A DNA stretch of 52,947 nucleotides from assembly GCA_947475225.1 (NCBI GenBank), contig CANJMQ010000021.1, positions 1-52,947 of the forward strand. The letters are read 5' to 3'. The position numbers and the translations under genes were made by a program. The stretch comes from Bradyrhizobiaceae bacterium. GTDB taxonomy: Bacteria > Pseudomonadota > Alphaproteobacteria > Rhizobiales > Aestuariivirgaceae. The first letter of the stretch is position 1. Every line of letters starts with the position of its first letter. The notes below the pieces were generated by a model, which saw nothing but the letters and a program-made list of their open reading frames with translations, did not search any database and was not told the DNA's origin. This document shows positions 15,008 through 18,175 of the stretch, piece by piece.

Positions 15008-16225
15008 TCAGTCCTGCAGCAACGGCGCGTTGCCAGGGGTGGACACCGGGCTCACCGACATCACGTCGCGCCCATGGGCCTTGATGTGGTCGGGGTGACG
15101 CCAGTTTCGCCAGAAGGCGAAGCCGGCGAGAGCGCCGTTGACGACGATCATGAAGATCAGGAAGCCCGCCTGACCGATCTCGCTCATCAGCCAGCCCGCG
15201 AGGATGGGGCCGATGATAGAGCCCACGCCATAGAGCAGCACGAGCTTGGCAGACGCGCCCAGCACCTGCTCCTTGCGGAGGTGGTCGTTGGCGTGGGCGA
15301 TGACGAGCGAATAGATGGGAAGTGACACGATGCCGAACAGGGTCATCAAGCCGATGAGCATGAACCAGGTGACATAGTAGCCACCCGCGAGAATGATTGC
15401 CGGGACAACGGCCGCGGCGAGGCTGAGCAGCATGATGATGGTGCGCCGGTCGATGCGGTCCGACACCCAGCCGATGGGGTATTGCGAGAGGATGACACCG
15501 AAGGGTGGCAGCGCCATCATGATCGACACCCAGACCAGCGGCAGCCCCTTGGCCATACCGAATATGACGCCCAGTGCGAAAAAGGCGCTCTGCCCCAGTC
15601 CGCAGGCGATGACGCCGGCCACGGCGAGCGGCGAGGCATGCCAGATATCGGCGATTTTCACGCTCCTGGCCCCTTCGACGCTCGGCTGCTGCGATGGAAC
15701 GAGGATCAACGGCACGAGGGACATGGAGAGCAGGCACGAAACGACGATGAAGCGCGCGTAACCCGACTGGTCGGTGACATTGAGCAACAATTGCCCAAGG
15801 CCAAGCGCGCCGTAGGTGACGATCATGTAGAACGACAGCATCTGGCCACGGTTGCGGTTGGTCGACGCCGCGTTGAGCCAGCTCTCGCAGACGATATACA
15901 TGCCGGAGACGCAGAGCCCGGTGAGAATGCGCAGCAGGAACCAGAAGCCGGGGTTGACCCACAGCGGGAACAGCAGCACCACCGTGGACACGATGGAGGC
16001 AAGCCCGCCGAACGTGCGCACATGACCGACGCTCTTGACGAGCCGCGGGGCGGCAAAGGTGGAGAGCAACATGCCAGCCGAATAACCAGCCATCACCAAA
16101 CCGGTGGTGGATGTCGAGAAATGGGCGTGGTCAGCGGCAAGTGACACGAGCGAACCGTTGAGACCGTGACCAAGGCAGAGCATGGCGACGCTGGCGAGAA
16201 GGACCCAGAGGGAGGCGTTGTTCAT
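15008..16225 (-). CDS. MFS transporter, YcaD-like
   Basis: A 12-segment major facilitator carrier of 405 residues. The N-terminal half begins ASLWVLLASVAMLCLGHGLNG, with the loop GYSAGMLLSTFAAPRLVKSVGH typical of the YcaD group and an aromatic-acidic stretch YIVCESWLNAAS. The second-half loop reads YPIGWVSDRIDRR. Substrate is unknown. It lies 32 bases after the receiver gene and is probably co-transcribed with it. Confidence 0.88.
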   Translation of the reverse strand: MNNASLWVLLASVAMLCLGHGLNGSLVSLAADHAHFSTSTTGLVMAGYSAGMLLSTFAAPRLVKSVGHVRTFGGLASIVSTVVLLFPLWVNPGFWFLLRILTGLCVSGMYIVCESWLNAASTNRNRGQMLSFYMIVTYGALGLGQLLLNVTDQSGYARFIVVSCLLSMSLVPLILVPSQQPSVEGARSVKIADIWHASPLAVAGVIACGLGQSAFFALGVIFGMAKGLPLVWVSIMMALPPFGVILSQYPIGWVSDRIDRRTIIMLLSLAAAVVPAIILAGGYYVTWFMLIGLMTLFGIVSLPIYSLVIAHANDHLRKEQVLGASAKLVLLYGVGSIIGPILAGWLMSEIGQAGFLIFMIVVNGALAGFAFWRNWRHPDHIKAHGRDVMSVSPVSTPGNAPLLQD

Positions 16226-16257
16226 GTCTCGCCTCTCTCAGGCCATTGCGGCGGGAA

Positions 16258-16626
16258 TCAGACGGCGATGCCGGCCTGGCGCAGTTTGAAGTGCAGGATG
16301 TCGCGGTCCAGCGGCATCATCAGCACGTCAGCGGCCCCTTCAAGGATGGTCTGGCCAAACATCTCGGTATCCGGCGTCTCGGCAAAGAGGAAGACCACCG
16401 GCGGCTTGCCGCGCGCCGCCATGCGCAGGCGCTTGACGAAATCCCTGGGCGCGCCGCCGTTGGCGCGGGCCGACAACATGACGACATCAGGCGAATTGTC
16501 GTTACAAAAACGCATAGCCTCTTCGGCCCCGCTGGTGAGGGACGTCTCGAGCCCAAGGCCAGACAGCATCTCACCGAGATGCTGTCGTCCCCCGCCCTCC
16601 ACATCAATCAGCAGACACCTGGTCAT
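16258..16626 (-). CDS. Degenerate single-domain receiver (CheY-like) protein
   Basis: A 122-residue protein with the overall receiver layout: MTRCLLIDVE at the N-terminus, SPDVVMLSARANG in the middle, and VLMMPLDRDILHFKLRQAGI at the end. From memory it resembles an alphaproteobacterial CheY-like group with CLIVDDS, LLDWNMP and IMKPFDKDI motifs. Compared with that, one of the acidic pair is Val, the phospho-acceptor Asp is Ser, the conserved Thr position is Ala and the conserved Lys is Met. It should therefore not be phosphorylated in the normal way and may act as a constitutive binding partner. The start at 16626 has GGAGAGG upstream. Confidence 0.75.
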   Translation of the reverse strand: MTRCLLIDVEGGGRQHLGEMLSGLGLETSLTSGAEEAMRFCNDNSPDVVMLSARANGGAPRDFVKRLRMAARGKPPVVFLFAETPDTEMFGQTILEGAADVLMMPLDRDILHFKLRQAGIAV

Positions 16627-16672
16627 GCCCACAAACCTCTCCGAATCCTCCTGAACCGGGCGCAACTGCCGT

Positions 16673-16801
16673 TGGTCCACAAGATGAAAACCTGCGCCGG
16701 GCTGGTTAATGAGGGGTTAACGAGGTTATCCACAGCTTTTCCACATGCCGTAAACAGTTGAGGCAAAGCGAGAAATGGCGTTATTCACAGGCTTGTCCAC
16801 A
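16673..16801. promoter_or_regulatory. Cluster of DnaA-box-like 9-mers
   Basis: Upstream of the receiver gene lie four same-orientation 9-mers: TTATCCACA (16726-16734, perfect), TTTTCCACA (16737-16745), TTATTCACA (16781-16789, fits TTATNCACA) and TTGTCCACA (16793-16801). A weaker TGGTCCACA is at 16673-16681. They form two pairs, each spaced 11-12 bases, about one helical turn. The intergenic stretch 16627-16880 holds no gene. Options are a DnaA-controlled promoter, a DnaA-titration site or part of a replication origin. Confidence 0.6.
16706..16720. promoter_or_regulatory. CtrA box (perfect TTAA-N7-TTAA)
   Basis: TTAA-TGAGGGG-TTAA matches the alphaproteobacterial CtrA consensus exactly. It begins 80 bases upstream of the receiver start and ends 5 bases before the perfect DnaA box. 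The side-by-side layout suggests cell-cycle control by both regulators. Confidence 0.6.
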
Positions 16802-16880
16802 GTGGCGGAAATGCGGCGTCTGGCGAGTCGTCTGGCAGACCGTGCGGGGTGAGTCGCGGCCAGAAACCATGCGCAAGCGA

Positions 16881-17471
16881 CTAATCCGGACGGCGCATGC
16901 GCCAAGCCTCGGTAACCGTGGCGTATTCGCTGTAGCCCATCCGGGCAATTGGGCGCATGGCCGCCGTATCGACCCTGCCCTCATGGATGAAGCGGTCATC
17001 GATGTGGATGCCCAGCACACGGCCGATGATAAGGAAATTCTCCGACTGACCATCGTCATCGGGCAGCGCCACGATCCGGTGAAGGCAGCATTCCAGCGCC
17101 GCCGGGCTTTCGGCGACGCGCGGCGGATGGACGATCCGGCAGGGTGCCTTGGCGAGTCCGGCCAGCTCGAACTCGTCAGCTGCCACATGCGCCGAGCTGG
17201 CGTTCATCTGCTCGCGCAGGTCGAAGGTGGCGAGGTTGACCACGAACTCCCCGGTGGCCTCGATGTTGCGCATCGAATCCTTGCCGGCACCACTGCCGAA
17301 GGCCACGTAATGCGGCGACTGCGAGAAGGCATTGAAGAAGCTGTAGGGCGCGAGATTGGCCACGCCTTCCGGCGACAGCGTCGAAACCCAGGCAATGGGA
17401 CGCGGCGCGACAATCGCCTTGAACGGGTCAACGGGAAGGCCATGGTCATTCTTCACGGCGTCGTAGAACAT
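16881..17471 (-). CDS. Flavin reductase family protein
   Basis: A 196-residue FMN-binding protein of the flavin-reductase-like split-barrel type. The pattern IVAPRPIAWVSTLSPEGVAN near the N-terminus, then LAPYSFFNAFSQSPHYVAF, ATGEFVVNLAT and VLGIHIDD, is typical. It could reduce FMN for a partner oxygenase or be a nitro or quinone reductase. The ATG at 17471 overlaps the HAD stop by one base (TGATG); a GTG one codon earlier is also open. It forms an operon with the HAD and nitroreductase genes. Confidence 0.88.
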   Translation of the reverse strand: MFYDAVKNDHGLPVDPFKAIVAPRPIAWVSTLSPEGVANLAPYSFFNAFSQSPHYVAFGSGAGKDSMRNIEATGEFVVNLATFDLREQMNASSAHVAADEFELAGLAKAPCRIVHPPRVAESPAALECCLHRIVALPDDDGQSENFLIIGRVLGIHIDDRFIHEGRVDTAAMRPIARMGYSEYATVTEAWRMRRPD

Positions 17472-18175
17472 CACAGTCTCCGCAAGAGCGCGGGGAGATC
17501 GGCCACGCTGTCGATGGTGTAGTCGGCCAGATGCGCGATGTCCTCTCGCCCGGCATTGCCGGAGAGCACCGCGATGGCGAGCCCTGCCCCGCCGTTGCGC
17601 GCCTCTTCCATGTCATGGTGGTTGTCGCCGACCATGGCGATCGATGCCGCCGGAAGTCCGGTGAGGGCCGCGAACCTGCGGATCATGTTGCCGGCGGGCT
17701 TGGCGACGGGGACGGTGTCCGCCGCGATGATGTCTTCGAAATGCGCGATGACACCCACCTCCGCCATGTGCGCCCGGGCCGAGAGGTGACTGTCATTGGT
17801 GGCGACGCCGAGCTTGAGGCCCATCGCGCGGAGATCGCTGAGGATCGGTTCGAGCGGCATCAGCGGCACGAGCCTGTCACGCGCCATCTGCCCGAAGCGG
17901 TGTTCGAGGCGGTCAAGATGAGCGTCGAGCGCACCACCCTTCAGTTCTGGCCACCAGATGGCGGCAATCTCGCGGTTGGTGCCACCGGCCAGCGGCGAAC
18001 CGGCCTTGAGCTTGCCGGTCGCGCGGTCATAGCCCGCCTGAACCATCAGCGCTTCGGCGCCGGCGTCGTCGACGCTGAACAGTTGCTTCAGCGCTTCGCG
18101 GTAGATCGGCACCCACGTCGCGTTGACGTCGATCAGCGTGCCATCCTTGTCGAAGAGGACACCGTGGATCTTCAT
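17471..18175 (-). CDS. HAD-family phosphatase, phosphoglycolate-phosphatase-like
   Basis: A 234-residue haloacid-dehalogenase hydrolase. Motif I is VLFDKDGTLID, motif II GVATNDS, the motif III lysine is in VAKPAG, and motif IV is MVGDNHHDMEEA. The cap sits between residues about 17 and 85. The natural substrate cannot be told; phosphoglycolate phosphatase is the usual label. It is coupled at both ends: ATGA with the nitroreductase gene upstream and TGATG with the flavin reductase downstream. Confidence 0.88.
   Translation of the reverse strand: MKIHGVLFDKDGTLIDVNATWVPIYREALKQLFSVDDAGAEALMVQAGYDRATGKLKAGSPLAGGTNREIAAIWWPELKGGALDAHLDRLEHRFGQMARDRLVPLMPLEPILSDLRAMGLKLGVATNDSHLSARAHMAEVGVIAHFEDIIAADTVPVAKPAGNMIRRFAALTGLPAASIAMVGDNHHDMEEARNGGAGLAIAVLSGNAGREDIAHLADYTIDSVADLPALLRRL

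Follow-up and report, generated by a model that had tools for sequence, protein, structure and literature searches.

The 52,947-nucleotide stretch of DNA analysed here (the window; contig C21 of a 177-contig, 4.10 Mb assembly close to Aestuariivirga litoralis) carries a full CtrA box next to a group of DnaA-type boxes upstream of a small receiver gene, and the question raised by this locus is what function such an arrangement serves. The first-pass annotation had offered three possibilities: a cell-cycle promoter, a DnaA-titration locus or a replication origin. The evidence presented below favors the first. With a probability of roughly three in four, we consider the site to be the regulatory region and promoter of the receiver gene, controlled by CtrA and DnaA and, in the majority of relatives, also by CcrM/GcrA.

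A sequence motif scan of the window reproduced the earlier-reported positions of the CtrA box and the four DnaA-type boxes, including the perfect DnaA box five bases beyond the CtrA box and the three variant boxes that follow it. All four DnaA-type boxes lie on the plus strand in a single orientation, with starts spaced 11, 44 and 12 bp apart, in the two pairs with 11-12 bp spacing that had been described. Three GANTC sites and a conserved block were found in addition to these elements. The features of the locus are as follows.

15008-16225, minus strand: MFS transporter gene, 32 bp after the receiver gene (ORF, Pfam, synteny)
16258-16626, minus strand: receiver gene, encoding a single-domain CheY-like protein of 122 aa with Ser52 at the phospho-acceptor position (ORF, Pfam, predicted structure)
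16643-16647, unstranded: GANTC site (GAATC) between the CtrA box and the start codon, offset -63 (motif match)
16688-16697, unstranded: putative core-promoter stretch AAACCTGCGC, in most relatives GACTCCTG or GAGTCCTG; no GANTC in the window's clade (alignment)
16706-16720, unstranded: full CtrA box (TTAA-N7-TTAA), TTAATGAGGGGTTAA (motif match)
16726-16734, plus strand: DnaA box D1, perfect, TTATCCACA, 5 bp from the CtrA box
16737-16745, plus strand: DnaA box D2, TTTTCCACA, one mismatch
16781-16789, plus strand: DnaA-like box D3, TTATTCACA, one mismatch
16793-16801, plus strand: DnaA-like box D4, TTGTCCACA, one mismatch
16803-16817, unstranded: conserved block TGGCGGAAATGCGGC, often TGGCGGAATTGCGGC in relatives (alignment read by eye)
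16825-16829, unstranded: GANTC site (GAGTC), far element, offset +119 (motif match)
16851-16855, unstranded: GANTC site (GAGTC), far element (motif match)
16881-17474, minus strand: flavin reductase-like gene on the far side of the site, co-directional with the receiver gene (ORF, Pfam, synteny)

The site occupies the 254-bp gap between the start of the receiver gene and the end of the flavin reductase gene, both of which are encoded on the same strand. Read in gene orientation, the elements follow the order far GANTC pair, conserved block, DnaA boxes, CtrA box, GANTC (where present) and start codon, which would place the CtrA box about where a -35 element is expected. The block at 16803-16817 separates D4 from the far GANTC pair; many relatives keep it, some alignment rows lack it, and it matches no motif that we recognized.

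Conservation was assessed on 29 genus-level loci, defined as Aestuariivirga-type upstream regions, of which 27 belong to the same genus (L034 through its identity with G229) and two have no stated genus (L035 and L037); six duplicate loci (L031-L033, L036, L038 and L039) were omitted from the upstream alignment set. The CtrA box, which lies 60-110 bp from the receiver start codon across these loci, is full in 28 of the 29, and a DnaA box at precisely +20 relative to the first base of the CtrA box, the position of D1, is likewise present in 28. This placement is retained in 12 of the 13 loci whose receivers are less than 60% identical to each other, so recent common descent is not the explanation. 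The remaining boxes are more variable: D2 is kept in 16/29 loci, a box at the D3 position in 10/29 and one at the D4 position in 16/29, with at least one of the latter two in 23/29. Mean pairwise column identity is 0.92 for D1, 0.56 for D2 and 0.51 for the spacers; the alignment register was set by the CtrA box, so its identity of 0.99 is in part obtained by construction. Judged from the alignment, the strictly kept unit is the CtrA box plus D1, and the later boxes, which the first-pass annotation had emphasized, are looser.

A pattern search for the CtrA box-D1 arrangement across 397 genomes of the order identified matches in 29 genomes, comprising 12 of the 13 same-genus genomes and 17 elsewhere. 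All 12 matches in the genus lie beside the receiver gene, and none of the 17 matching genomes outside it presents a receiver in the fetched locus. The reversed-pattern control returned 22/397 genomes, none of them in the genus. Among same-genus genomes, the exceptions are G015, without a receiver match, and G327, without a match to the CtrA box-D1 pattern. The conserved spacing of the elements, together with the fact that every copy found in the genus adjoins the receiver gene, supports the option of a cell-cycle promoter.

Receiver-type matches extend beyond the genus: profile searches matched at least 290 of the 297 genomes in a sample of the order, the best-scoring matches among those listed being from the genus, followed by other families. 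Twelve loci outside the genus, the best-scoring non-genus rows among the matches listed, were selected for comparison, the scores showing no clear break at that point (106.5 bits for the twelfth versus 104.3 bits for the next). Eleven of these contain a full CtrA box, which lies 60-121 bp from the start codon when genus-level and outside loci are taken together. A D1-type box at +18/+19 is present in 6/12, a D4-position box in 2/12, D2 in none, and a reverse-strand box at +95 to +105 in 5/12; in two loci (L208 and L211) no DnaA box with up to one mismatch was found in the upstream region. As a control, we examined 15 lower-scoring CheY-type loci (L217-L225, L027-L030, L040 and L041), which the inferred tree unites in a clade (100/100) distinct from the genus and from the 12 outside loci, the latter not constituting a single clade. 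No full CtrA box lies within 300 bp of the start codon in any of the 15, L217 alone has a DnaA-type box nearby, and a CheW gene adjoins the receiver in both loci checked by Pfam (L217 and L028). The occurrence of the CtrA box in 11/12 outside loci and in 0/15 CheY-type loci suggests that the module goes with this receiver branch.

GANTC sites are concentrated in the same region: their density is 13.9 per kb over the 240 bp immediately upstream of the receiver gene, against a background of 1.38 per kb. A site at -21 to -18 is present in 23/29 genus-level loci and in 11/12 loci outside the genus, about 20 bp gene-proximal to the CtrA box. Two further positions lie on the far side, at +126 to +132 (17/29) and at +138 to +146 (26/29, and 8/12 outside the genus). 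The core site at -21 to -18 is missing in the window's clade (L001-L004 and L034) and in L014; in gene orientation, the relatives' AGGACTCG corresponds to AGGTTTT in the window's clade, and the GANTC lying between the CtrA box and the start codon in the window sits at -63, as opposed to -21 to -18 in most relatives.

The product of the adjoining gene is a CheY-like receiver. Pfam Response_reg matches it with an E-value of 6.2e-05 and 23.6 bits, below the 30.2 cut-off, and the predicted structure presents the five alternating strands and helices of the receiver fold (pLDDT 89.0, pTM 0.84); its profile matches are headed by a de novo protein, followed by PleD and CheY chains. The A. litoralis record NZ_QKVK01000004.1 encodes a receiver 91% identical to that of the window. 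Reading of the sequences revealed that the phospho-acceptor Asp expected after strand 3 is absent in all 29 genus-level receivers. Nine of them (L014, L015, L016, L018, L020, L023, L024, L043 and L046) have Glu at this position, a possible phospho-mimic, and the others Ser, Ala, Gln, Pro, Lys or Asn. Outside the genus, Asp is kept in 6/12 receivers and found one residue later in 5/12, in which the phospho-acceptor is possibly shifted. The retention of Asp in half of the outside receivers and its complete absence in the genus make acceptor loss in the genus look derived, and a receiver lacking the usual phospho-acceptor would probably act by binding a partner.

Gene order around the site is also conserved. 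The nitroreductase-HAD-flavin reductase-receiver order was found in all nine genus-level 10-kb loci and in G148, from another family, and a NAD kinase gene lies beyond the receiver gene in 8/9 genus-level loci and in G148. The MFS gene, possibly cotranscribed with the receiver gene in the window, was matched in 5/9 genus-level loci (L031-L035) and not in L036-L039, and lies beside the receiver gene in 7/12 outside loci (3-kb loci). Where a MaoC-family gene occupies the far side (Pfam-checked in L039 and L026), the site still adjoins the receiver gene. The regulators presumed to act on these elements are encoded in the genomes searched, the sets of which differ slightly among regulators: CtrA in 10/10 genomes, at 88-91% identity to the query, GcrA in 10/10 and DnaA in 8/8. 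A RAMA-domain protein was likewise found in 10/10, its assignment as CcrM-type resting on the RAMA domain in open frames of 370-406 aa. G000 is among the genomes positive for CtrA, GcrA, the CcrM-type protein and DnaA.

Under the promoter reading, CtrA would bind the full box at approximately the -35 position, and DnaA would bind the perfect D1 box just upstream, and probably further boxes too, their spacing being close to whole helical turns. DnaA bound at this location could help or hinder CtrA and the polymerase, and the timing of receiver transcription would be set jointly by DnaA availability and CtrA phosphorylation. In most relatives, the GANTC site between the CtrA box and the likely -10 element may add a third, replication-linked input through its methylation state and GcrA, an input that the window's clade would have lost at the core promoter. 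The partner of the receiver could plausibly be a kinase of the cell-cycle pathway. A more specific extension of this scheme, which we put forward as unlikely, is that the locus works as a timer, in which the pseudo-receiver, transcribed under DnaA and CtrA (and under GANTC methylation in most lineages), would feed back on the CckA-CtrA phosphorelay; its ancestor would have been phosphorylatable, and in Aestuariivirga control would have moved to the promoter, with Asp replaced (by Glu in 9/29). If this were true, replication start would directly tune CtrA activity.

A simple receiver promoter leaves two elements unexplained, the far GANTC pair and the TGGCGGAATTGCGGC block (16803-16817 in the window), which could together constitute the promoter of a second, outward transcript encoding a small RNA or, where present, the MaoC-family gene. 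A GACTCGC-type sequence read by eye at both ends of the region, with a TTGCGG-like hexamer about 17 bp before the far one, is compatible with this idea, as is the divergent MaoC-family gene that begins beyond the site in some relatives. The far pair, however, persists in loci such as L013 and L016, in which the gene that follows was judged by eye to be the flavin reductase in the same direction, and an Rfam search of 16200-17000 returned no match; we consider an outward promoter rather unlikely.

The DnaA-titration option fared less well. In E. coli, datA and DARS are DnaA-regulating loci consisting of intergenic groups of DnaA boxes, with a possible bend between them. The window site resembles these loci as an intergenic DnaA-box group with a possible bend between boxes, and differs from them in having a CtrA box and GANTC sites, in adjoining one gene and in its box arrangement. 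A datA/DARS-like titration or reactivation site, whose boxes would mainly hold DnaA, with CtrA and methylation as modulators and the adjacent gene as an incidental neighbor, would fit the head-to-tail boxes placed near whole helical turns and the A+T content of the gap between the box pairs (62% on average over a 34-bp stretch). Matches to IHF-like sites in this gap are also somewhat better than in shuffled gaps (mean best mismatches of 1.90 versus 2.66), but this signal is weak, and the shuffles preserved base content only. Against this explanation, box number varies among relatives, the matches to the CtrA box-D1 pattern in the genus all adjoin the receiver gene, and the most widely conserved elements are the CtrA box and the GANTC in promoter position, with the DnaA boxes varying more outside the genus. 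Titration as the main role of the site is accordingly improbable.

The proposal that the site is a chromosomal replication origin, very improbable in our assessment, is contradicted by GC skew and marker position in relatives. CtrA box, DnaA boxes, GANTC sites and an A+T-rich gap are all origin-like, and on the A. litoralis contig (G017:C21), whose site is at 46.8 kb, cumulative GC skew reaches a local minimum close by, at 50-55 kb. Skew sign nevertheless changes several times along this contig and the curve is lower at 345-350 kb, so that the local minimum is not specific. In G207, where the site lies at 603 kb of contig C1 (2.28 Mb), skew is positive in 77 of the 80 5-kb windows covering 400-800 kb and in 51 of 52 20-kb stretches of the contig. 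In G148, a single 4.63 Mb contig with the site at 27 kb, 28 of the 30 4-kb windows in the first 120 kb are positive; here skew turns from negative to positive between 2.1 and 2.7 Mb (samples 0.3-0.4 Mb apart), and hemE lies at 2.604 Mb. A distance of 1.87 Mb separates hemE from the site in the single-contig genome G079. The remaining eight genomes tested carry the two on different contigs, which proves little by itself, and in G207 hemE sits at no skew change and is only a rough marker. The skew in two relatives speaks strongly against oriC, and with no GC-skew switch at the site in G207 or G148 and hemE roughly 2 Mb distant in G148 and G079, the origin reading, for which hemE and dnaA served as marker genes, was rejected.

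Three observations on other sites were made during this analysis. Two full CtrA boxes, 21 bp apart, lie upstream of hemE in G000, G017 and G002 (L092, L094 and L095), and this region is a candidate for the true origin region. In G207 (contigs C1 and C2; L106-L133 and L160-L199), skew is positive in 51/52 stretches of C1 and negative in 16/16 of C2 (1.01 Mb), and origin and terminus therefore seem to be located where contigs end, the two arms being very unequal. Finally, two DnaA-box pairs exactly 332 bp apart were identified at G000:C4:62022-62041 and 62354-62373 (L153 and L158). The same spacing is found in G000, G001, G017, G018 and G229, and the reversed pattern occurs in none of these five and once in G005. 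In G000 the pairs lie inside one 280-aa ORF, beside a gene that by eye resembles a photosynthesis-type cyclase, and are perhaps a coding coincidence; this set, the strongest recurrent one of DnaA-box pairs elsewhere in the genus, was dismissed on account of its location within coding sequence in G000.

Single boxes carry little weight: the 4.10 Mb assembly contains 15 copies of perfect TTATCCACA and 12 of its reversed control, so that the box is hardly commoner than that control. In a same-genus background of 1,777,984 bases (the window, contig G017:C21 and 1.36 Mb from G207), full CtrA boxes occur at 9.6 per Mb and DnaA boxes with up to one mismatch at 115 per Mb. The combination of a full CtrA box and two or more such DnaA boxes within 110 bp is confined in this background to the window site and its A. 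litoralis (G017) ortholog, and the same holds for three DnaA boxes in 100 bp; the G207 copy is not counted here, one base of its CtrA box being changed. Chance matches, which the first-pass annotation named as what would be left if the sites were not conserved, bound by DnaA or CtrA, or near a skew minimum, and for which the frequency of single degenerate boxes and the lack of enrichment of the CtrA box-D1 pattern outside the genus (17/384 genomes, against 22/397 for the reversed control) could be invoked, are a practically negligible explanation, since sites and spacing were found to be conserved in relatives across 29 loci, the receivers of which share as little as about 35% identity with that of the window, and the reversed control matches 0/13 genus genomes.

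The preferred reading, a CtrA- and DnaA-controlled promoter of the receiver gene, has established parallels. Combinatorial promoters using DnaA, CtrA and GANTC are known in Caulobacter, for instance those of podJ and mipZ, which combine CtrA motifs with DnaA motifs located tens of bp further upstream and, in some cases, GANTC near the core promoter (PMC4287350). Like the podJ and mipZ promoters described there, the window site places several master-regulator sites upstream of one gene; unlike them, it has another target gene, a fixed unit of CtrA box, 5 bp and DnaA box, and up to four boxes in the same orientation (PMC4287350). A CtrA box near -35 is an activating layout in Caulobacter, as stated in PMC9430884. 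That source also describes, in Rhodobacter sphaeroides, the CtrA-activated single-domain response regulator Osp, which inhibits CckA and for which a non-phosphorylatable D51N variant was tested (PMC9430884). As in osp, the small CheY-like protein considered here is encoded behind a CtrA-type box, located 54 bp from the start codon in osp and 60-110 bp here (PMC9430884). In contrast to the window receiver, Osp keeps Asp51 and is described from clades of Rhodobacterales, and DnaA boxes, present at the window site, do not appear in the excerpted account of the osp promoter (PMC9430884). Osp may serve as the nearest functional model for the receiver, as a likeness of function. In most relatives, the GANTC near the promoter makes replication-linked methylation a likely input, as in ctrA P1 and other GcrA/CcrM promoters, whereas the window copy lacks the core GANTC (PMC8116508 and PMC7987155 for these promoters). 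Combinatorial cell-cycle promoters are thus a known kind, and what is new is the target gene and the rigid CtrA-DnaA unit; a search of the open-licence PMC literature with general terms found no publication on this locus.

The locus points to a precise regulatory module in a little-studied branch of the Hyphomicrobiales, the CtrA and GANTC parts of which are conserved across several families. Two, and often three, of the alphaproteobacterial cell-cycle master inputs would meet at one uncharacterized gene, and strict CtrA-DnaA spacing has been kept while the GANTC input and the phospho-acceptor were lost. The pseudo-receiver is thereby marked out as a candidate for a missing component of the cell cycle.
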